Source: a virus. From it: a stretch of 64,000 bases of DNA. Location of the stretch: positions 1-64,000 of the IMG/VR virus record IMGVR_UViG_3300028829_005098, one strand, 5' to 3'. The position numbers were made by a program, and so were the translations under genes. How positions within the stretch are numbered: the first letter of the stretch is position 1; every line of letters starts with the position of its first letter. The notes beneath the pieces are model-generated. The model searched no databases. It was not told the origin of the DNA and was given only the letters and a program-made list of their open reading frames with translations. This document shows, in pieces, positions 3,397 through 64,000 of the stretch.

Positions 3397-4549
3397 CAGA
3401 CACCGTTGCTAATTCTTGTTCAACAATTGTATCGTTATCTTCAAACTTAACATCTTCGTCAATGACACTATTTGCAGATTCATACTGCATAACAACTTTG
3501 TCGCATATGTGATTATATAATTCTTCTTTTAGTTCAGGATTTTCTGCTAACAAAGTTGGAAATTCTTTTGCCATAAACTTGTGTTCGTTTTCTTTAGAAT
3601 CAACATAGGTATAGTATGCACCACCTTGCTTAAATACTTTATGAGTTTTAAGTGTGGAAATCCAACTTCCCAAATCATCAATACCACGATTGAAATAAAT
3701 TTCAAAGGCTGCTTTTTTTTGAGGAGGACCCATACGATTCTTAACGATTGTTGCTTCGCATTTGTTTCCAATTACATCGGTTGTGGAACCCTGTTTAATT
3801 TGACCAAGATTCTTCAAACGAAGACGAACACTTGCGTGGAATGCTAATGCCTTACCACCACTTGTTGTCCACGGATCACCAAACATAACTCCCATCTTTT
3901 GACGAAGTTGGTTAGTGAATACTAAAGCAATTTTTTGACGTCCAATTGTTGAAGTCAACTTACGCATTGCTTTACTGATTAAAATTGCTTTGGTTGTTGC
4001 AAATCCGTCTTTACTATAATCTGCGGACATTTCTACTTTTGTGGATGCGGCTGCAACACTATCTGTAACAATAGTAACAAGTCTATCTTTGTTGCTTTTA
4101 CGAATTGTTGCAATGATATTATCTATGGTCGCAAAAATATCTTCTACTGTGTCTACATGAACATACAATAGTTTGCTTGTATCAACACCAATAGCAGTAA
4201 GATACTCAATACTAACACTTGTTTCCGTGTCAATATACACTGCAACACCTCCCTTCTTTTGAGTTTCTGCTAGAATGTGACCACACAACAAACTTTTACC
4301 ACTTTGTTCTAGTCCTGTTACTTCTGTGATTCTTCCAACAGGAATTCCACCATTCGGTCGATTTGAAATTGCTAAATCTAGTAAACTGCTACCCGTTGAA
4401 ATCCATTCTGAAATCAACGACGGATCGTCCCCCTCGTTTAAAAAGAAGGCAACCTTACCTTCATCTTTATATGCGGTATTTAAACTATTTGCTAATACCG
4501 ATGCCAAGTCCTCGGAACTTGTTTTGCTTGTTTCTTTTTTTCTTGCCAT
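3389..4549 (-). CDS. uvsX: RecA/UvsX-type recombinase
   Basis: ATP-dependent strand-exchange protein for recombination-dependent replication and repair. It has a RecA core with Walker A GLEQSGKS at about residues 77-84, an acidic catalytic stretch YIDTETSVS, Walker B VTIVTDSVAAAS, and a long L1/L2-like region with VFTNQLRQKMGVMFGDPW and TSGGKALAFHASVRL. The C-terminal 50 residues are acidic, as in UvsX and RecA. At 386 residues it matches T4 UvsX (391). It lies 53 bases after gp32, separated from it by a strong hairpin. No UvsY-type mediator is obvious in the window. Confidence 0.94.
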   Translation of the reverse strand: MARKKETSKTSSEDLASVLANSLNTAYKDEGKVAFFLNEGDDPSLISEWISTGSSLLDLAISNRPNGGIPVGRITEVTGLEQSGKSLLCGHILAETQKKGGVAVYIDTETSVSIEYLTAIGVDTSKLLYVHVDTVEDIFATIDNIIATIRKSNKDRLVTIVTDSVAAASTKVEMSADYSKDGFATTKAILISKAMRKLTSTIGRQKIALVFTNQLRQKMGVMFGDPWTTSGGKALAFHASVRLRLKNLGQIKQGSTTDVIGNKCEATIVKNRMGPPQKKAAFEIYFNRGIDDLGSWISTLKTHKVFKQGGAYYTYVDSKENEHKFMAKEFPTLLAENPELKEELYNHICDKVVMQYESANSVIDEDVKFEDNDTIVEQELATVSDE

Positions 4550-4602: not shown

Positions 4603-5433
4603 TTAAGACTTAAACAACTCTTCAAAAGCAGCCTCTACATCTTCAGTTGAAGTTGCATTTGGTTTGCTTTTTTCAGAAGTCGTGCTTTCTGCGGTTGGTG
4701 CTGAAGCAACGGTTTTTTCTGTCGATTCAACAACAACATCAGAATCTACTGACTCGGCAGGAGGAGCATCTTCTTCAGATTCCCCACTTACCCACTTTTC
4801 AAGTGCGTCTTTTAATTCATCGTAACCAAGTTCTTGATAAATATCTGTAATTTCAGGTTGATTGTTAGCAACATTCTCTACGATATTTTTATTATCTGAA
4901 ATAGGTGATGTATTTGGTTTCACACGGATGTTTGTCTTTGGAAAAGAACGACCTGCTTCTTCTGCTGAAAGAAATTCAATTGTGATATCTCTTCCATTAG
5001 TTGCATCGGTGATGTCTCCATAATCGGGATCAGCAATAACACTTAATAGTTCTTGATAAACTTCTTTACCAAATCCCCAAAAACGAACTCCTTCTGCTTC
5101 TTCATCACGAACGATGACAGGTACAAATGTACGCATCTTCGGCATAAGAGAACGACCCATGCGGTAATCATCTTTGTCACCACTACGAGTTAACTTTTCA
5201 GCAAACTCAACGATTGGGTCAGGACGACCAAACGACTTTGGTGATAAGTATGTTCTATTATTGATTCCATAATGAAAATACAACTCAATAAATGGATTAT
5301 CGGGTTGATGCTTGTATGGTACAATACGAACTTGTTGCTTACCAGGTTGAGGTTTCCATTGATAGTTTTTGCGATTATTTGTCTGAGACAAATTATTCAA
5401 CTTTGCTTTTATTTTATTTAGGTCAATTGCCAT
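4603..5433 (-). CDS. Single-stranded DNA-binding protein (T4 gp32-like)
   Basis: Cooperative ssDNA-binding protein that coats displaced strands and works with UvsX, helicase and primase. The N-terminus MAIDLNKIKAKLNNL resembles the LAST-type basic start of gp32 proteins. The OB-fold core holds VRIVPYKHQPDNPFIELYFH and the phage-typical SPKSFGRPDPIVEFAEKL. The last 60 residues are acidic and Ser/Thr-rich, ending EAAFEELFKS, which is the expected protein-interaction tail. There is no cysteine in the 276 residues, so the zinc knuckle of T4 gp32 is missing. AAGGA lies 8 bases before the ATG. The hairpin after the stop may raise message stability. Confidence 0.88.
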   Translation of the reverse strand: MAIDLNKIKAKLNNLSQTNNRKNYQWKPQPGKQQVRIVPYKHQPDNPFIELYFHYGINNRTYLSPKSFGRPDPIVEFAEKLTRSGDKDDYRMGRSLMPKMRTFVPVIVRDEEAEGVRFWGFGKEVYQELLSVIADPDYGDITDATNGRDITIEFLSAEEAGRSFPKTNIRVKPNTSPISDNKNIVENVANNQPEITDIYQELGYDELKDALEKWVSGESEEDAPPAESVDSDVVVESTEKTVASAPTAESTTSEKSKPNATSTEDVEAAFEELFKS

Positions 5434-5518
5434 TGTATATTCCTTAATTTGTATTTGTTATTATTATTCTTAATATAATACTATTCGTTTTGAGTTTCGT
5501 CAATCAGAATTATATTAA

Positions 5519-5749
5519 TCAAGAGAATTTTCCGCCATTTTCAACGAAATTGTAAAAGTCAGAAGCAACTTCTAATACTTCATGTGTAGTTGGTAATGGT
5601 GGCATATCAGGAGAAACTTTTTCAAAATTTGCATAACTTTGCAATTCTTCTTTTTCCATGTGCCATCTTTCCCATACCATTTCTTTTGCACTTTTTAGCA
5701 CTTCCAATCGAATACCGAGATTGGTTAATTTATCAGATTCATTTGTCAT
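5519..5749 (-). CDS. Conserved small phage protein, unknown function
   Basis: A 76-residue acidic protein with no motif I can tie to a reaction. It is helical in outline: LGIRLEVLKSAKEMVWERW near the start and PTTHEVLEVASDFYNFVEN near the end. Short proteins of this pattern (an LEVLK helix, then a Pro-rich hinge and a helix ending FV) occur next to gp32 and DNA metabolism genes in T4-like phages, from memory. It is the first gene of a unit that continues into gp32 85 bases later. No clear Shine-Dalgarno sequence precedes the ATG, which is preceded by a long AT leader with one ATATTTAT motif. Confidence 0.6.
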   Translation of the reverse strand: MTNESDKLTNLGIRLEVLKSAKEMVWERWHMEKEELQSYANFEKVSPDMPPLPTTHEVLEVASDFYNFVENGGKFS

Positions 5750-5797
5750 TTTTTCAATTATTATTATTCAATTACATTAACGAATTAATGCGTGTAT

Positions 5798-5805
5798 ATA
5801 AATAT
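5798..5805 (-). promoter_or_regulatory. ATATTTAT promoter-like motif before the gp32 operon
   Basis: Coding-strand ATATTTATATAC, 48 bases upstream of the 76-residue gene and just past the end of the methyltransferase gene. Same orientation as the other copies. Confidence 0.45.
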
Positions 5806-5820
5806 ATTTCAGACTATGTT

Positions 5821-6603
5821 TTATGTCAATTTCAAAGCATTTTTTTGAATATTTTTTTCAATTCTTTCGCATGAAATTTCAACTGCTTTTTTGTTAATAT
5901 CACATCCTATGTATCTACGATTTAAAGAATTAGCAACATCAAGTGTTGTTCCACTTCCGCAATAAAAATCTGCAACTAAATCTCCTTCATTGCTACTTGC
6001 TTTTATTATTCTTTCAAGTATCTTTGGATGTTTTTCTGAATAATAATCAGTTTGTTTTTTAACTTTTAGTCCAGATGGAATATCATCCCATACATTTGTT
6101 GGAATTGTTCCAAGTGCTAACTTTTCTGCGGTGATATTGGGACGATCTTGTTTTTTACTAATTACAGATTTGTATGGAACTCGGATATCTAAATCATTAA
6201 AAACAAAATCGTTTGATTTTGTATACACAATTATATAGTCATGTTTTTTTGCAAATTCTTTTTTTCCACGGCCACCTATATTAAATTTTACTACAATTTG
6301 GTTTCTGAAATTACTATAACCGAATATGTCATCCATAATATTTCGTATCCAGTGAACGATACGTAAATCCATTTGAAGGTATATTGTTCCTGCATCTTTT
6401 AATACACGATGCATTTCTGTTAAACGTGGAATATAGTGTTGTTCTATAACTTTTTTAGTTGGAACTAAATCTTCATAATCTTTGAATATCTTTCCAGTTC
6501 CATATAAAATGTCACAATAAATTAAATTTAATTCATTAGACTTTATATTATTTAATAATTTTATATTATCACAACAATAGATGTTGTTTTCTTTTATTAT
6601 CAC
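5821..6603 (-). CDS. DNA methyltransferase, beta-class N4/N6 type with altered catalytic motif
   Basis: An amino-methyltransferase that would modify adenine or cytosine in DNA. The motif order (catalytic motif IV first, SAM-binding motif I last) is that of beta-class enzymes. Motif I is DFYCGSGTTLDVA near residues 211-223, followed by RRYIGCDINKKAVEI, the usual SAM pocket. The catalytic motif, normally DPPY, reads D31-I-L-Y (YCDILYGTGK). The surrounding NLIYCD...GTG context fits type III-like enzymes (DPPYNTG). At 260 residues it lacks a recognisable target domain. The start is GTG, 2 bases after the SpoVR stop, so it is the last gene of the prkA operon. It could protect phage DNA or be a regulatory methylase. 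Confidence 0.8.
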   Translation of the reverse strand: MIIKENNIYCCDNIKLLNNIKSNELNLIYCDILYGTGKIFKDYEDLVPTKKVIEQHYIPRLTEMHRVLKDAGTIYLQMDLRIVHWIRNIMDDIFGYSNFRNQIVVKFNIGGRGKKEFAKKHDYIIVYTKSNDFVFNDLDIRVPYKSVISKKQDRPNITAEKLALGTIPTNVWDDIPSGLKVKKQTDYYSEKHPKILERIIKASSNEGDLVADFYCGSGTTLDVANSLNRRYIGCDINKKAVEISCERIEKNIQKNALKLT

Positions 6604-53674: not shown

Positions 53675-54028
53675 TCAGTCTTCAAAGTATTCAATTACTT
53701 TTCCTGTTTTAATATTATTTTTGCAGGCTTTTCGTTTATCACGATGTAGATGTGGTGCTTTATCAAGATACTCTGTGGTACAATGAAATATATAACCATC
53801 CACCACAGGACCTTCTGTTGTTTCTCCTTCACTATATACTCCGATAAATTTAAAGTCATCTTTTTCTTTTTTAACAAATTTGCTTGCAAGAGACTTTGCC
53901 CAATTTTCATTTCCTGCTTTTTTTGAAGAATAACTATATCTAGAATGATTTGGTGCTAGTTCAAGTCTCCAAGTTTCTCCAAGTTTTTCTTCTTGAATTA
54001 ATTCATCTAATATTTTTTCAAAATTCAT
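53675..54028 (-). CDS. Small hypothetical protein
   Basis: 117 residues. It starts MNFEKILDELIQEEKLGETW, a short acidic helix ending in L-x-E, followed by LELAPNHSRYSYSSKKAGNE and KFIGVYSEGETTEGPVVDGY. No family is recognised. It overlaps the kinase gene by 4 bases and ends a base before the next ATG. Confidence 0.55.
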   Translation of the reverse strand: MNFEKILDELIQEEKLGETWRLELAPNHSRYSYSSKKAGNENWAKSLASKFVKKEKDDFKFIGVYSEGETTEGPVVDGYIFHCTTEYLDKAPHLHRDKRKACKNNIKTGKVIEYFED

Positions 54029-55068
54029 TTTTCACCCTTAAACTTTAATGAACGAATTTGGTGAAAGTATTTTACGATCTGATTCCTTGATAAATTCAGA
54101 CTTTCTACCAATCTCGATAATACCGCAAGATTTCTTCGTTCGTTTAATTTAAATTTTCTAATTACATAAATAGACCTACTCAAATGTCTTTCTAAATCCA
54201 TAGGAAGAACGACATCTTCCATAGAAACTATATCTAATTCCTCATTCACACGATTTCGTTTATCACCACTCTTAGTCATTTTATCATGTGCCATCATCAT
54301 TTGTATCCACTTTTTACCAATTGGATTTCGTATGGGTTTTGCAACAAATCGTGCAGTTGCTTTTAAAACGTGTGGAACTAAATCTAGTCTTCCTGGTTTC
54401 TTTTTACTACGAGTATCTTCAGAGTTATCTACAATAACAAAGTTTTTTCCAAATGAACCTTGAAACTTACCAAGATTTTTTTGTACATCGGTCCAAATAT
54501 CTTTTACTATTTTTCTTGGAAGTTTTCTTTTACGCATTGCGTTTCTTTGTTGTGCAACTTCAAGTGTTGTGTTAACAAACACCATATAACAATCGTATCC
54601 AAGTTTTTCTAGTTCTTTCTTTTGCTTAGATATTTTGTTATAGTTATCACCAGTTCCATCAACAATAACACCAAGACGATTATTTTTAAACATTTCAAAT
54701 TGTCTTAACATAATTTTCTTTGCACGGGAACGAATACTATTTGGATCACCACTTGTCACTTTGCTAAATGTTTCATCGTCCATTTTGGATAAATTTAAAT
54801 CGTATCCTGCTTTCTTTAGAAGTATTTCAAACGCAGGATCACTATTAACTATCTTTAACCCACTTGGAGACAAATTAGTTGCTTCGGGTGGAAAATCAAA
54901 TATTGTATCAACGGTAGCAGATTTACCAGATCCAGGACCTCCCGCTAAAAATACTGCTTTTAGAATACCAGGATCATACACACCCTCTACAAGTGTAAAA
55001 TATCCTTTACGCAATCCTGCTTTAATCAGGGTTTCTTTGACTTCTTGGTTTTTTTCGGAATCTTCCAT
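54025..55068 (-). CDS. P-loop kinase, zeta-toxin / polynucleotide kinase-like
   Basis: 347 residues. Walker A AVFLAGGPGSGKSATVDTIF at about 35-54; KIVNSDPAFEILLKKAG follows as in zeta-type kinases; GVIVDGTGDNYNKISKQKKE near 135 is the Walker B/lid region; MVFVNTTLEVAQQRNAMRKR near 162 carries the arginine lid. These features place it among small-molecule or polynucleotide kinases of the zeta-toxin/PNK group; the substrate cannot be told. The N-terminus ends TLVEGVYDPG, with an L-x-E site. It begins the unit with the nucleotidyltransferase/ligase fusion and may work with it in end repair or nucleotide metabolism. Confidence 0.75.
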   Translation of the reverse strand: MEDSEKNQEVKETLIKAGLRKGYFTLVEGVYDPGILKAVFLAGGPGSGKSATVDTIFDFPPEATNLSPSGLKIVNSDPAFEILLKKAGYDLNLSKMDDETFSKVTSGDPNSIRSRAKKIMLRQFEMFKNNRLGVIVDGTGDNYNKISKQKKELEKLGYDCYMVFVNTTLEVAQQRNAMRKRKLPRKIVKDIWTDVQKNLGKFQGSFGKNFVIVDNSEDTRSKKKPGRLDLVPHVLKATARFVAKPIRNPIGKKWIQMMMAHDKMTKSGDKRNRVNEELDIVSMEDVVLPMDLERHLSRSIYVIRKFKLNERRNLAVLSRLVESLNLSRNQIVKYFHQIRSLKFKGEK

Positions 55069-55111: not shown

Positions 55112-57712
55112 TTATACTCCGTATTTTATCTTACTAAAAGAACCTTCTTTTTGAATTTCTATAATCTCGTCCACCATATCTCTCATTACATCCAAATGAC
55201 TGATGACCATTATGAACTCAAACTGCCCCTTTAAATAGGTAAACAGATTAAATACACTACTTATGTTGTCTCCATCCAAAGAACCCCACCCTTCGTCAAT
55301 AACAAGGAAATTAGAACGTGGCAAACTACTTACATTAATAAGTGCTACTCGCATTGCGATACTGCTAATGAAACGTTCCATGCCACTACACATTTCAAGT
55401 GGCCAATGACGATCTTCATATGTAATCTTTGAGTAAATATGCTTTCCGTCCATCTCAAGTTGCATACCAAAGTCAACAATTTGAGAAAGAATATTATTAA
55501 CTTCACTTTCAATGCTTGGAATTGTTTTGGAAATAAGTTCATATGAAATACCATCTCGTTTTACTGCATCAAGATATAGTTCGTATCCTCGTTTCTTTCT
55601 TTCATACCCCTTTGCCTCTTCAATAGATTCTAAAACATCTTTATGTTCTTTTTCTACAATTTTAACTTCACCAAACAAACCTTGTAATTTCATTGTTTCG
55701 TTTGATACTATTTCGTCTACTTTTTTTAATTTTTCTTTTACTAAATCTGCATCTACTTGTAGTTTTTTATTGAATAGAATAATATCTTTACACTCATAAT
55801 ATTCTTCAATGCTTTTATCGTTTAATAGTATATCTTTTTCAAGTGACTCAAGTATACTTGAAAGTGCAAGAATTTTAGAATCTACGTCACTTATTTCATA
55901 CGACATTTGATTTAGTTTGGTTCTATCTTCAATTAGTTTTTTATGTTGTTCTTCTATATCACCAAATTTATCTAATGTTTTAGTAAGTTCAGTTTTAGTC
56001 TTAACTAGTTCATCGGCATCTGCTTTATCTTTATCAAGTTCTTTTTTAGTAATAGCCGCACTATCAATCAAATTCTTGGAATTCTTTACACAAAACTCAC
56101 ACTTAGGATCATATTCATGACTATCATAGTGTTTAAGTTTATCTAATTTAGCATTAACAGATGTTCTTAAAACTGCTAAGTCTTTATCTACTGACATTAG
56201 TTCTTCTTTTATTTTTAATGACTCGATAAAATTATCTTCTATATGTTTTCTTTTGCCCAACGACTTGGTTAGTTCAGACTTTTCGTTTGCTAATTGTTTT
56301 TTTCTGTCGGATTCTTTTTTTCTATTATCGTTTGCTATTTCAAGTCTATCTCTTAAATTTCTTTTATTATACTCAAGTTTATCTATATCTACATTTTCTT
56401 CATCAAACGAACAATTTTTAAATTGAGAATTAATTTCAGCAAGACTATTATTTAATATTTTTTGTTCAGCAAGTGCTATATCAGTTTTTTCGTTTTGTTC
56501 GTTATATCTTAAATTAACATCGTTAAGTTTTTCTTGTACATTCAATAAAAGTTCATCGAAGTTTTCACGATTAAATCTTTTAAGTAAAGCATTTATTTCT
56601 TTTATATCTTCAGATGCAGTTGAATGCAAATTATCAAATACATCAATACCCATAAATTGTGCAAGTAAATCTTTACGTTCACTTTGACTTTTATCTATAA
56701 AGATTGCATTGTTGTTTTGCAAACTTAATGCAGTTAAAACAAAATCTTCATACGAACCCACATGATCACGAATATTTGCATTTGTACCTGTTCGTTGTTC
56801 TCCGTTCAAAGATACTTTTTGTCCAGTAGAATCGTTTTTCCAAAAATCTACTACCACAGTAACATCTCCATTCTTTTTAGTAGAAGCATTTCTTTCAATA
56901 AAGTAATCTACACCAGAAATCTCAAAGTTTAACTTACAATAAAAACTATCAGTCTGTGTATTTAGTACATGGGCAGCCTTGAATGCTCTGTCACACTTAT
57001 CATATAAACAAAAACTTAATGCACTCATTACACTACTTTTACCACTTGCATTTGAGGCAAATAAACCCATAACACTTTTCATATTTGAAAAGTCTACAAT
57101 GTTTGAGTCTCCGTAACTAAACATATTGCCGAATTCAAACTTTTTAGGTTTCCATATGCAATTTCTAAGAATTTCCTTTACAACAAGTTTATCATTTATT
57201 TCTTTGTTGATATCGAGTGCAGTTTTGATTTGTTCATCATCTACTACGAAATTTCTTCTAAGATAATCTTCTATTAAATCATTTTGAACATGAACCTTTG
57301 TAATATCACCAAAGTCAAATTTATTATCACGATCAAACTTTTTTGCTTCAGAAATAGCATCACACCTTGTTACATTTAAATCAGATATACTAGTTTTCTT
57401 ACGAATCTCCGCAAGAATTTCTTTAGTTTCAGTTGCAGTTGTGTTATATACTTTTACACGAAGTCTTGCCTTTTTTGGCAATTGACTTAAATCACTTACA
57501 CATTTACCATCACGAACCTCTACCGTATAATAACCATAATCGTTATGCACTTCGTGGTGTGTGTGTTTTCTATTTTTAATATCCCAAAAAACATAACCAT
57601 GACCCTTTGGTTTTTCTCCATGATTTTGTTGAATCATGCTACCCGAGTATACCACAACAGGTTTCTCACCGTTGTGTCTTTTTATTTTTACATATGTTTT
57701 TGGTTCATCCAT
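55112..57712 (-). CDS. gp46-like (Rad50/SbcC) ATPase with the gp47 C-terminal domain fused to its N-terminus
   Basis: 866 residues. Residues 1-150 are not Rad50 but the C-terminal capping domain of Mre11/gp47: PVVVYSGSMIQQNHGEKPKG, GYVFWDIKNRKHTHHEV, LPKKARLRVKVYNTT. The ATPase starts near 195 (WKPKKFEFGNMFSYGDSNIV) with Walker A FASNASGKSSVMS at about 219-228, a Q-loop (SLQNNNAIFIDKSQSERKDL), a coiled coil with zinc hook CEFC near 537, signature CSGMERFISSIAMRV and Walker B FLVIDEGWGSLDG near 802. It needs the phosphoesterase encoded two genes upstream. The ATG overlaps the end of the glycosyltransferase-like gene and has no clear Shine-Dalgarno sequence, so translation is probably coupled. 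Confidence 0.9.
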   Translation of the reverse strand: MDEPKTYVKIKRHNGEKPVVVYSGSMIQQNHGEKPKGHGYVFWDIKNRKHTHHEVHNDYGYYTVEVRDGKCVSDLSQLPKKARLRVKVYNTTATETKEILAEIRKKTSISDLNVTRCDAISEAKKFDRDNKFDFGDITKVHVQNDLIEDYLRRNFVVDDEQIKTALDINKEINDKLVVKEILRNCIWKPKKFEFGNMFSYGDSNIVDFSNMKSVMGLFASNASGKSSVMSALSFCLYDKCDRAFKAAHVLNTQTDSFYCKLNFEISGVDYFIERNASTKKNGDVTVVVDFWKNDSTGQKVSLNGEQRTGTNANIRDHVGSYEDFVLTALSLQNNNAIFIDKSQSERKDLLAQFMGIDVFDNLHSTASEDIKEINALLKRFNRENFDELLLNVQEKLNDVNLRYNEQNEKTDIALAEQKILNNSLAEINSQFKNCSFDEENVDIDKLEYNKRNLRDRLEIANDNRKKESDRKKQLANEKSELTKSLGKRKHIEDNFIESLKIKEELMSVDKDLAVLRTSVNAKLDKLKHYDSHEYDPKCEFCVKNSKNLIDSAAITKKELDKDKADADELVKTKTELTKTLDKFGDIEEQHKKLIEDRTKLNQMSYEISDVDSKILALSSILESLEKDILLNDKSIEEYYECKDIILFNKKLQVDADLVKEKLKKVDEIVSNETMKLQGLFGEVKIVEKEHKDVLESIEEAKGYERKKRGYELYLDAVKRDGISYELISKTIPSIESEVNNILSQIVDFGMQLEMDGKHIYSKITYEDRHWPLEMCSGMERFISSIAMRVALINVSSLPRSNFLVIDEGWGSLDGDNISSVFNLFTYLKGQFEFIMVISHLDVMRDMVDEIIEIQKEGSFSKIKYGV

Positions 57713-58634
57713 TGGTTATAATATTTAAAATTTCTTCTCCTAATTCTGAATCAGTTAAGTAAGGACTTAAGTGATGGTGACCTTGGAGTGGGAAATAGCA
57801 ACATGGTCCTAAAAAAGGAGAACGATTCTCAGTTACATCGACGTTCTTACGATGTTGTTGCCAATGAATACCTTTTGGTCCGAACATTTGGTGTATGTAA
57901 TCAGTAGATATAATAGTTGGTACTCTAAGTGCAGATGATATATTTGTAATACATCCCTCTGCACCAATTACATAATTGCAATTTTTAATCAACGATGCAG
58001 TGAATGTAAATTTGCTTGTGGAATTTATTGTAGGAAATCGTTTAGATATTTTATCTTCAAGACCAAGTGCAAATAAAATTATCTTAGGGTGCGTTTCCAA
58101 ACAATTAATTATTTCAAATGTATCTCTTTTTCCAGAACCATATCCATTTCCTGTTTCACCACCCTCCGCACGATTATATTCTTCTTCTGTAAAAAGAAAA
58201 CTTTTATTGTGCCAATCCATTTGGTATCCAACTTTGATAACATCAGTTTGCCAATGATTTATAGCAACAAGCTCTTCCATACTTTTACTTACACCATAAT
58301 CAAGTGCAGAAGAAGTAAAAATTTCAAAGGTATCGTCGAAAGCTTTTATATCACACATTCGTTGAAACTGAGATACTGCCGATTCGTATGGATTTAAGGT
58401 AGCACCATCTTCTATTAAATTGTATACATGAGAATAATCGTTTCTTGAATCTTTGAAATGTACTCTATTGATATAAGGATTATTATTTAGCAATTCTATT
58501 GGTTGTAGATAATCAATATCATAATCAACTTCACAATCTATATGTTCTTCTTTTAATTTTTTTGCTACACTACTTGCAAACAGAATATCACCAATATGAA
58601 TGTTTCTACACTTAATTAAAAATCTTTTAATCAT
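57705..58634 (-). CDS. Glycosyltransferase-like protein (GT9/heptosyltransferase type) inserted in the gp47 locus
   Basis: 309 residues from the ATG at 58634, which has GGGAGG 6 bases upstream. The N-terminus IKRFLIKCRNIHIGDILFAS followed by SVAKKLKEEHIDCEVDYDID is the start of a GT-B fold glycosyltransferase like LPS heptosyltransferases. FTASLIKNCNYVIGAEGCIT, then NISSALRVPTIIS, is the donor-binding half. The end has GPCCYFPLQGHHHLSPYL. It overlaps the gp47 phosphoesterase part by 8 bases and the gp46 fusion by 8 bases. It separates two pieces of what is normally one gp47 protein and is thus a likely insertion. Acceptor and donor are unknown. Confidence 0.72.
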   Translation of the reverse strand: MIKRFLIKCRNIHIGDILFASSVAKKLKEEHIDCEVDYDIDYLQPIELLNNNPYINRVHFKDSRNDYSHVYNLIEDGATLNPYESAVSQFQRMCDIKAFDDTFEIFTSSALDYGVSKSMEELVAINHWQTDVIKVGYQMDWHNKSFLFTEEEYNRAEGGETGNGYGSGKRDTFEIINCLETHPKIILFALGLEDKISKRFPTINSTSKFTFTASLIKNCNYVIGAEGCITNISSALRVPTIISTDYIHQMFGPKGIHWQQHRKNVDVTENRSPFLGPCCYFPLQGHHHLSPYLTDSELGEEILNIITNG

Positions 58635-59331
58635 TACAAACCTCCCATCCATCGAGTTTATATTTCTCTAGTGTGTTTTCCGACACAAATCTATGCTCAG
58701 TTTTGTATTCCTGTAATACTTGGTATTTGTGAATATCTCCGAGCATTACAATATCATATCCATTGAATTGTGGTAATTCAACATCACCACCCATAACAAC
58801 ATACCCAACATCAGTCATACTTCGTTTTACTGCTCCGTGGTAAACTGCTATTTTAGTTGTTATACTCTCATCTGTAATATCAGAACCCACTATATAATTT
58901 TGTGGATCATCAAATATTCCAAATACACTAATTGCTATATCACCGATTTTATATACACCTGTATCTCTTAAATAATACAGATTAGGTTGGTCCATCATTC
59001 CAACTATGGGTGATAGAACATCCAACCTATCTGGATTATTTAGATTGCAATCATGATTGCCTGCTATAACTACAGTGGGGTGTAGTTTAGCACATTCTGA
59101 TAAAAAAGTTGCTATTTGTTTTATGAGTTCTGGACTCATTTCTGTTTTAGCATGAGCAATATCTCCACCAATAAAAATTAAGCAGTTATCGTAATTGTCT
59201 TCTTTAACTTGATTGTAAAAGTTTTCAAATACACCTGTATACTCGGAATGCCTTTTGATATTTCTAATATGAATATCTGCTAAATGGTAAACTTTATCAA
59301 TATTTTTTATCTGTGAATCTAACTCAAGCAT
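58627..59331 (-). CDS. gp47-like (Mre11/SbcD) phosphoesterase domain, split from its C-terminal part
   Basis: 234 residues. All metal-binding motifs of the Mre11 nuclease are present: HLADIHIRN (Asp19, His21), FIGGDIAHAK (about 56), VIAGNHDCNL (about 95), AVYHGAV (about 170) and MLGDIHKYQVLQEY (about 207). T4 gp47 has 339 residues and continues after this point into a capping domain; here the protein ends in KTEHRFVSENTLEKYKLDG and WEVCND, and the missing capping domain is at the N-terminus of the gp46-like protein. The nuclease site itself looks intact. It overlaps the primase gene by 13 bases. Confidence 0.9.
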   Translation of the reverse strand: MLELDSQIKNIDKVYHLADIHIRNIKRHSEYTGVFENFYNQVKEDNYDNCLIFIGGDIAHAKTEMSPELIKQIATFLSECAKLHPTVVIAGNHDCNLNNPDRLDVLSPIVGMMDQPNLYYLRDTGVYKIGDIAISVFGIFDDPQNYIVGSDITDESITTKIAVYHGAVKRSMTDVGYVVMGGDVELPQFNGYDIVMLGDIHKYQVLQEYKTEHRFVSENTLEKYKLDGWEVCND

Positions 59332-61467: not shown

Positions 61468-64000
61468 TCAAACGTCATATTTTATCAAAAAATTTATTGG
61501 GTAATTTGGAATAATTTTCACAGGTTTAGCAAGTTTAGCAGTCATAACTAAATCAGGACCATCATATAAACCTACGGTTGTAGCATATGGTGCTAAATAA
61601 CTACCCTTTTTATCCTGCTTGTTTTTCTCTTCATAATCCAAGAAATTGTTTAATATTTTACGACCATTGTATTTTCCTGTTTTTTGATCTAAATATTCTA
61701 TAATTTGATAAGCATTGGGTCTTTTTATATTTCTATAAAACGGACTTACTAATCCATCGGTGAGTGCTTTTCCTGTTCTTCCGACAAAATATCTTGCAAG
61801 AAGTTTTGCGTCCGATGCACCAACCACACCGTCACCGTCAATATCAAGACCATTCATACCTAAAAGTCTTAATGCATCTAGTCTATCTAGTATTTTTAAA
61901 TCTTCTTCTTTTGAATTATTATTATTTACAGTAAGGTTATTTAAAATATTCATAATAATAACATCATCTGCTTCACTAATAATAACATCATCATTTGGCC
62001 ATTTGGCATCTTGCTCAAGCACTAAACTATTATCCACTTCAGCTGATGTGTCTTCTGTTTCACTTACTCGTTTAAATGAACCTAGAATATAACGATATAT
62101 ATAAGATAAATCAACTATATCAAATTTTCCGTCATCTGTTACATCAAAGTCAATATCTTCAATTTCTACCGAACTTGGATTTGTACTAACATTAAACTCA
62201 TGTGGATTGACTTTACATACCACTTCATTTTCATATATAGAATTTATTCCATCAAATGAAATTTCATATCCACGCCTACCACCGAGTGAAAGCATATTGC
62301 TAAAATACTCAGTAAGTTCAGTAATAACTGCGATACCATTTTTATAAAATACATTTCCAACATAAACTCTATCTCCGTCACGAATAGTTTTTACGTCATA
62401 TGATATAACCGATCCTTCAACTTGTAATTCGTTATGTTCTAAATTTCCCCAAATAATATCACCACGTTGAGAAAATACATGAGAACAATTATCAAACGAC
62501 ACAATGTTATCATCACCGAAACTTGATATTTGATCTATTGGCCAATCACCAAGAACGGGATTTCCAACATAAATTCGTGTTGAACTTAAAGAAACACTTT
62601 CTCCATATTGAGTTTTGACATTGTTTTTTTCTTTAACACTAACAATTTCTTTTATTGTATAAAGATTATCAGCATCGTCTATTCTATAATATTTTGCACA
62701 ACCTTGTATACTATTTCGTTTAATATTATATATAAATTCTATTTCCTCGGTTGGATCAAACAAATGTCCAATCGTTTTTACAAAGAAACAAATCTTACTA
62801 TTTTCAAATTTGGTTTTATCACGATATACACCACGTGTAAGTGTTCCGTTTCCGTCTGTATCTATATAGTTTTTTTCGGAATAAATAAATGATGCTCGTA
62901 TTTCAAAGTCAGAGATAGTTTCTAAGTCAATATCTGTAATTGATTTTGTATCAATGCATATCATCATGTCTACTTGATTCAAACCTAGATATTCATATTC
63001 AAAAGATGTAAATAAACTTTGGACAACTGTATAAAATTCTTCCGAATTATTTTCTACTCCAAGTTTATAATCAGGAATTTTAAATTCTTTGCCTTCGTTT
63101 AATATCTGTATTCTACTTTGGTCTGTACATGGTGATCCAATTAATAAATCATTTCCTATTAACGATACATCACAACCGAATTTATTATTGTATCTCCGTT
63201 CAACATCATCGTCTTCGTATATCTTTCTTATATAATTTAATGTATTATCTTCAATCTTATACATCCACACAGATCCTGCTGAGAAAGAAATTCCCTGCGT
63301 TAACTCTACATCCGTGTCTACATATTTCCTATCATTTGAATCTCCGATGAATATATACTTTCCATTAGTTTCAAGTGATGTACCAAAGTTACTATATTTA
63401 TTTTCAAAATATTTATATGGATATTTTACCATATCTTTTCTAGATTCTACATTTACTATCTTTGGATTTATTGAAAAACTAATTACAGATGGTGTTCCCA
63501 CTAAAAATGATCCCAAATATCTGCCTATATATATATTATGGTCTCCTGCGTCAATATCATCAAATTTAATTGTAAATTTGTTTGAACTATCTATAACATT
63601 TCCATTGTGTAAAATTCTACTATTATACTTATCCGTTCCTTCACCGAATAGTTTATCTATTCTATATATAAATCCTTTACCGGTGGATTCTGCAACCTGC
63701 TTTGTTTCCACTTCAATAGTTATTGAATCATCATTAACTTCATACTTTATTTTATTAAAATAGTCTTGAGATAAAATTAACTTACTTGAATCGTAGTTGT
63801 AAATTTCATTCTTATAAAATGACTGAATATGTTTCCAAATATCGCAACTTCCTGTTTCAGATGGTCTTTTTCTAAATAAATATGCTTTTTTGTCATCGGT
63901 GTCAGGTGTAGTAGATAATAAAACATCACCAAACAGTTTTACCTTTTGTCCGAGTTTCTGTGACCCACTTGCTCTTACAATTGAAACAAGTTCCCATGTA
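61468..64000 (-). CDS. Large virion-type protein with FG-GAP beta-propeller and dockerin repeats (5' end outside window)
   Basis: The frame is open to the window edge, giving at least 843 residues; the start is not in view (GTG at 63711 is internal). The N-terminal 500 visible residues hold FG-GAP/integrin-type blades: KLFGDVLLSTTPDTDD at the edge, FGTSLETNGKYIFIGDSND, FGCDVSLIGNDLLIGSPC, and GESVSLSSTRIYVGNPVLGD. The C-terminal part has two calcium-binding dockerin repeats: DVTDDGKFDIVDLSYIYRYI (about 62075-62147) and DIDGDGVVGASDAKLLARYF (about 61781-61845), with a degenerate one between. Such proteins are surface adhesins or fibre-associated structural proteins in large phages. A tail fibre or decoration role is inferred. 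Confidence 0.72.
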   Translation of the reverse strand, partial: TWELVSIVRASGSQKLGQKVKLFGDVLLSTTPDTDDKKAYLFRKRPSETGSCDIWKHIQSFYKNEIYNYDSSKLILSQDYFNKIKYEVNDDSITIEVETKQVAESTGKGFIYRIDKLFGEGTDKYNSRILHNGNVIDSSNKFTIKFDDIDAGDHNIYIGRYLGSFLVGTPSVISFSINPKIVNVESRKDMVKYPYKYFENKYSNFGTSLETNGKYIFIGDSNDRKYVDTDVELTQGISFSAGSVWMYKIEDNTLNYIRKIYEDDDVERRYNNKFGCDVSLIGNDLLIGSPCTDQSRIQILNEGKEFKIPDYKLGVENNSEEFYTVVQSLFTSFEYEYLGLNQVDMMICIDTKSITDIDLETISDFEIRASFIYSEKNYIDTDGNGTLTRGVYRDKTKFENSKICFFVKTIGHLFDPTEEIEFIYNIKRNSIQGCAKYYRIDDADNLYTIKEIVSVKEKNNVKTQYGESVSLSSTRIYVGNPVLGDWPIDQISSFGDDNIVSFDNCSHVFSQRGDIIWGNLEHNELQVEGSVISYDVKTIRDGDRVYVGNVFYKNGIAVITELTEYFSNMLSLGGRRGYEISFDGINSIYENEVVCKVNPHEFNVSTNPSSVEIEDIDFDVTDDGKFDIVDLSYIYRYILGSFKRVSETEDTSAEVDNSLVLEQDAKWPNDDVIISEADDVIIMNILNNLTVNNNNSKEEDLKILDRLDALRLLGMNGLDIDGDGVVGASDAKLLARYFVGRTGKALTDGLVSPFYRNIKRPNAYQIIEYLDQKTGKYNGRKILNNFLDYEEKNKQDKKGSYLAPYATTVGLYDGPDLVMTAKLAKPVKIIPNYPINFLIKYDV

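Follow-up and report, generated by a model that had tools for sequence, protein, structure and literature searches.

The closest worked-out precedent for the locus described here comes from phage Aeh1, whose nrdA gene is split by mobE while the enzyme remains active (PMC2988022); that this enzyme consists of two chains is also mentioned in PMC3267527 with a citation of Crona et al. 2011, a paper whose title, as given there, refers to assembly via interaction domains from the mobile element. Two further phage genes are split with endonuclease genes, that of T4 topoisomerase with mobA and gene 43 of Aeromonas phage 25 with seg43 (PMC2988022). Fused Mre11/Rad50 proteins are known as well, from Mimivirus (R555) and as an abundant class in aquatic viral metagenomes, and many marine homologues of the R555-type fusion have already been traced to phages (PMC3175470).

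The locus that we analyzed shares the domain order nuclease-cap-Rad50 with R555 and its aquatic viral relatives, but where the R555 type is one chain, the chain here is cut inside the nuclease domain. As in Aeh1, relatives have uninterrupted orthologues, and in our reading an endonuclease gene likewise would have divided the gene of a phage enzyme so that two chains are made, with neither intron nor intein; unlike in Aeh1, the gene that was hit encodes a fused Mre11-Rad50, many lineages show the event at one and the same site, and the clade studied here has a glycosyltransferase in place of the endonuclease. Where the Aeh1 nrdA type is reported to have element-derived assembly extensions, there are here a tail and a head of opposite charge, the tail carrying a motif found in homing endonucleases but also in the prophage family phrog_1175. 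The topoisomerase/mobA and gene 43/seg43 cases also concern replication enzymes that are split and have a free-standing endonuclease gene where the break lies; they differ in that other genes are affected and that the slot holds no unrelated cargo. Work by Dassa from 2009, cited in PMC10448857, is said to describe phage-like genes interrupted in a similar way by endonuclease ORFs, but with split inteins that rejoin the protein, of which there are none here. In the literature collection searched, we found no report of a Mre11-Rad50 gene split by a homing endonuclease.

The window is a 64,000-nucleotide stretch (positions 1 to 64,000 of IMG/VR virus record IMGVR_UViG_3300028829_005098) of a phage that is a T4-like myovirus by its major head protein, tail sheath, portal, and terminase. 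The first-pass annotation had read three of its genes as a gp47 (Mre11) interrupted by a glycosyltransferase-like gene that overlaps both neighbors by 8 bases, with the remainder of gp47 fused to gp46 (Rad50), and had named a sequencing or assembly error at the junctions among the findings that would refute this. The reading frames, ends, and overlaps of these genes proved exact (Table 1), and the order of nuclease half, glycosyltransferase, and cap-Rad50 chain recurs in 32 further IMG/VR loci that keep both overlaps (8 to 14 bp), which excludes such an artefact. In a second set of 23 loci, retrieved through the glycosyltransferase (≥48% identity), both halves flank it in each case. Within the clade, pN/pS is lowest in the nuclease core (0.16) and in the Rad50 chain behind its head (0.17) and higher in the nuclease tail (0.29), the glycosyltransferase (0.35), and the head of the Rad50 chain (0.36); these figures are rough because synonymous sites are near saturation, but such low values reflect purifying selection and indicate that all segments are maintained as proteins. 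Two other genes in the window caught our attention: a Zeta-toxin or polynucleotide-kinase-like P-loop protein (54025-55068, minus strand; Pfam Zeta_toxin 1e-11, phrog_12810 1e-37) adjoins the Rad50 chain downstream, and a 747-amino-acid protein (61468-63711, minus strand) contains LDIDGDGVVGASDAKLLARYFVG and DVTDDGKFDIVDLSYIYRYILG, which resemble dockerin-type calcium-binding repeats and are uncommon for a phage.

Table 1. Features of the split Mre11-Rad50 locus (positions in the window)
Feature	Coordinates	Strand	Remarks
Mre11/SbcD nuclease core half, 234 aa	58627..59331	-	All metal motifs through GDIHK
C-terminal tail of nuclease half, KTEHRFVSENTLEKYKLDGWEVCND	58630..58704	-	Resembles tails of other split forms; predicted helix 218-226
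Stop/start overlap of nuclease half and glycosyltransferase, 8 bp, ATGATTAA	58627..58634	-	8-11 bp across the clade
GT9-like glycosyltransferase (predicted), 309 aa, ATG at 58634	57705..58634	-	Probably a later occupant of the split site
Stop/start overlap of glycosyltransferase and Rad50 chain, 8 bp, ATGGATGA	57705..57712	-	8-14 bp across the clade
Mre11 nuclease-domain end, cap region, and Rad50 ATPase, 866 aa	55112..57712	-	From profile matches and alignment
Basic N-terminal head of Rad50 chain, MDEPKTYVKIKRHNGEK	57662..57712	-	Missing in uninterrupted relatives

The upstream protein matches Pfam Metallophos over residues 13 to 203 (6e-8) and an SbcD-like PHROG (1e-13), its AlphaFold model (pLDDT 85) is structurally closest to SbcD and Mre11, and its metal motifs are invariant in our alignment, so the earlier description of a phosphoesterase half with all metal motifs holds. 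The 866-residue chain opens with the remainder of Mre11, followed by Rad50/SbcC, and matches an SbcC-like PHROG (1e-41) as well as SMC_N and SbcC profiles; the Walker motifs are kept, and the CxxC hook residues C531 and C534 are invariant in the alignment. The domains for the nuclease and ATPase activities are thus on separate chains in the window and on one chain in intact relatives. That the rest of gp47 sits at the N terminus of the gp46-like protein stands as first proposed, but the cut does not fall exactly at the cap domain. In a profile alignment to Thermotoga maritima Mre11, VDYAALGHIHSFREIQ--KQPLTIYPGSLIRIDFGEE pairs with the phage consensus ydlvlLGDihkrqvlqdeekptvvyaGsliqqnhGee, which places the cut after the last metal motif (GHIH) and before the IYPGSLI (YPGS) element. 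In Mre11 structures the YPGS element is still part of the nuclease domain, so that the downstream chain supplies the end of that domain together with the cap and not the cap alone. The notion of a complex held together by a swapped domain does not fit this geometry: a continuous chain is cut within the nuclease domain, and the tail and head are additions to it. A Lys-Thr pair at both broken ends, which had been pointed out as a shared junction, varies within the clade (QEYQT and QEYHT; heads MEDKE and METKE) and is therefore a coincidence; as a target-site duplication we reject it on the same ground.

Relatives with an uninterrupted phosphoesterase-ATPase fusion, a search for which had been suggested, are plentiful. 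Nuclease, cap, and Rad50 form a single ORF of about 1,050 to 1,070 codons in more than 100 viral loci (45, 77, and 67 loci in three overlapping sets), a named example being Microcystis phage Mel-JY01. Aligned across the junction, these ORFs have 26 to 34 residues from GDIH to the end of QQNHGE, and both the tail and the head extension are missing from them. The existence of these one-ORF fusions supports the single-chain gp47-gp46 ancestor that had been postulated, with the split as the derived state.

The same split occurs without the glycosyltransferase in at least seven other lineages, and what lies in the break differs among them. In jumbo phage LR756508 (locus L081), the halves are separated by a gene for a 305-residue zinc-ribbon, endonuclease-like protein that matches the HNH-endonuclease family phrog_1271 (3e-15) and a TnsA-like nuclease domain (6e-6) and resembles a NUMOD3-annotated endonuclease of Bacillus phage Moonbeam (1e-8). 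Locus L288 holds a zinc-ribbon gene of 295 codons, with an 8-bp overlap with the Rad50 chain; its product has no Pfam nuclease match and no match among named phages, and its C terminus matches (3e-9) a relic in L299. That relic, a 68-residue C-terminal piece (FAIPSKKILIEVDGIYWHG...), lies in the 234 bp between the L299 halves and itself gives matches of 7e-4 to 3e-3 to F-LimIII and AR9 Hef-like, both annotated as homing endonucleases. In L295, the start of a phrog_1271-type zinc-ribbon gene (1e-7) occupies the break up to the contig end. Homing-endonuclease-like genes or a relic thus lie at the identical break in L081, L288, L295 (start only), and L299 (relic). The 69-bp spacer of L188, which we read as a 25-codon remnant (KLIRFWASEVIDGGFLEKLKEVLYE), recalls the C terminus of L299 and L288 and is too short to score. 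In L195 and L221, the split halves have no sequence separating them, and L230 has about 600 bp there, including an opposite-strand ORF. The window's own clade has the glycosyltransferase at the break instead of a free-standing homing endonuclease gene, and we found no endonuclease remnant left in that clade. The first-pass annotation had taken the glycosyltransferase gene to be what split gp47; since the arrangement exists without it in L195, L221, L188, L299, L081, L288, L295, and L230, this role is unsupported.

The nuclease half alone, used as a query against viral contigs, gave zero matches. A strict tail pattern recovered only two already known contigs; a relaxed pattern recovered more splits together with homing endonucleases. 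A few features of the surveyed contigs deserve separate mention. In L188, a methyltransferase-looking gene (3822-4484) lies between the primase and the nuclease half, suggesting that the neighboring junction takes up genes too. The L230 gap (5179-5850) holds, besides the opposite-strand ORF (MTNIVNLTPHTVRIVDDQKN...), hairpin-like sequences. Two phages with intact fusions carry elsewhere a gene resembling the L299 relic at 39% identity (L048, 13011-13157; L067, 13058-13204).

The splits are strongly polyphyletic. In a tree built from 75 concatenated sequences, 6 changes of the split label are required, at least 5 of them forced by well-supported branches, and 8 are forced once L299 and L288 are added, although some split sequences sit on long branches, which leaves the exact number of events uncertain. 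Constraining all splits to one clade costs 516 log-likelihood units, and a single origin is rejected (AU test, p 3e-56). Two placements illustrate the pattern: split L299 and intact L157 are near relatives (71% and 75% DNA identity over the two halves), and split L195 nests inside the L033/L048/L052 group. One recurring position with similar extensions is what would be expected of a site-specific homing element and not of independent random breaks.

All split nuclease halves end in acidic tails that are similar to one another (L188 has QEYSVEEIEVDENEVEQYLKDGWEIV, the window QEYKTEHRFVSENTLEKYKLDGWEVCND), and wherever the downstream half is visible, it begins with a basic head (for example, MKKVRLKRTKP, MVKLKRKNP, and MEDKETYIKVKRHNKNKP). 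Among those examined, net charge is negative in 12 of 12 tails (-2 to -10) and positive in 11 of 11 heads (+2 to +6). Leave-one-out models of the tails from splits without the glycosyltransferase score 12 to 36 bits, equaled by 0 of 1,000 shuffles. With a model of the glycosyltransferase-clade tails, four of five other tails were beaten by 0 to 2 of 1,000 shuffles and that of L081 by 29 of 1,000, and when the reading frames of all loci were pooled, the best match outside the training loci was the window's tail, though at an E value of only 0.27. The tails have no known domain in Pfam. Their motif, V...E(V/L)..YL..GW, also appears in GIY-YIG and HNH homing endonucleases and is repeated in tandem in L279, suggesting that the tail is likely derived from an endonuclease; the same motif is found in small prophage proteins (phrog_1175), which leaves that origin unproven. 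We judge from these sequence features that tail and head are probably a docking pair that re-associates the two chains. Apart from the split loci, the many phrog_1175 proteins with V...EL..YL..GW (L263-L315) suggest a widespread mini-module that they share with homing endonucleases, and a 280-residue protein in L279 (194-1036, reverse complement) consists mostly of tandem copies of a homing-endonuclease module (ISKDGAFK.VKKEELETYLSQGW); in the part that was read, it shows no nuclease domain.

The middle protein is a predicted GT9-like glycosyltransferase. It matches no Pfam family above cut-off, and its one sequence match to GT9 is a weak one to 3TOV (E 0.25), but Foldseek places its AlphaFold model (pTM 0.81) in the GT-B, heptosyltransferase-like fold and matches it to the GT9 enzymes 3TOV (5.7e-9), WaaC, and WaaF (to 1e-6), which bears out the label it had been given. 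The gene is single-copy in the 115-kb record. Distant relatives (31 to 38% identity) occur in other viral contigs with no Mre11-Rad50 nearby, and in the six such contigs inspected, the neighbors look like genes for glycosyltransferases, sugar epimerases, and related functions; our searches found no relatives in bacteria or in named phages. The gene probably belongs to a family of viral glycan gene clusters and is a later occupant of the slot.

Several other explanations have to be weighed. That the fusion was split by insertion of the glycosyltransferase gene itself, the splits of other lineages being unrelated, is what the window's clade might suggest, as all of its loci with both flanks have this gene in the break, endonuclease traces are absent, and its tail resembles those of other splits to a moderate degree. 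We nevertheless consider it unlikely, because the same position, a similar tail, and a basic head recur where the break holds an endonuclease-like gene, a relic, or nothing, and no means of site-specific insertion is known for any glycosyltransferase. An old split state with one-chain forms arising by repeated, precise re-fusion would account for tail and head features common to splits that are scattered in the tree, yet it would require that tail, head, and the gene between them were cut out exactly, time after time; cellular Mre11 is continuous across the cut position in the T. maritima alignment, single ORFs are the large majority, and the placement of L195 within the L033/L048/L052 group points against split forms as basal, so that we regard this history as highly improbable.

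One might also suppose that one half is dead and that the split reflects degeneration in a phage no longer needing it; retention of the metal motifs, Walker motifs, and hook cysteines, and pN/pS of 0.16 to 0.17 in both halves, make this more improbable still. Least probable is a rejoining of the halves, as RNA through an intron or as protein through a split intein, even if other fractured phage genes reportedly offer a precedent. An intron is rejected by the lack of any Rfam match in the six split loci scanned (L230, L188, L195, L221, L081, and L005), and the tail (about 25 residues) and head (9 to 18 residues) are too short for intein halves, the former ending in a stop codon and the latter beginning at a start codon.

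The explanation that we prefer, and consider probable as a whole, is that a homing endonuclease split a fused gene into two docking chains, was lost, and left its slot to the glycosyltransferase. The ancestor would have been a single-chain Mre11-Rad50 fusion, into which a homing endonuclease gene inserted just past the last metal-binding motif of the nuclease domain (GDIHK.Q.LQEY), supplying its own end of the reading frame (the acidic tail) and a new start with the basic head. With overlapping stop and start codons, both pieces could still be expressed from one message; the first-pass annotation had proposed such translational coupling, and the overlaps conserved across the clade are consistent with it. 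The nuclease core with its tail and the chain of head, cap, and Rad50 would then most likely re-associate into a working Mre11-Rad50 enzyme. Homing endonuclease genes would have invaded this position repeatedly across many phages and later decayed, and in a marine T4-like clade, that of the window, a GT9-like glycosyltransferase would have taken the vacated slot. What we observe directly are relatives that keep the ancestor-type chain intact, a split that recurs at a single site, other lineages in which that site holds endonuclease-like genes or a relic, and purifying selection on every piece; from these we infer insertion by homing and, for the window's clade, an endonuclease that preceded the glycosyltransferase and was then lost. 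The identical site and the moderate tail similarity suggest the link between this clade and the endonuclease-associated splits. A broader idea, that homing endonuclease genes bring the acidic tail and basic head with them as a mobile docking pair and that the slot, once vacated, becomes a cargo landing site in a core replication operon, we offer tentatively, giving it somewhat less than an even chance of being right.

One site in one enzyme is thus found in a series of states: intact, with an endonuclease present, with one decaying, empty, and re-occupied by cargo, so that the fate of endonuclease-broken genes can be observed directly. It also provides many natural two-chain versions of Mre11-Rad50, cut beside the active site. 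If the tail and head do dock, they would constitute a natural split-protein tag that has arisen or spread repeatedly, and if the broader idea is true, re-docking chains would be a third way, beside introns and inteins, of invading an essential coding sequence with little harm.
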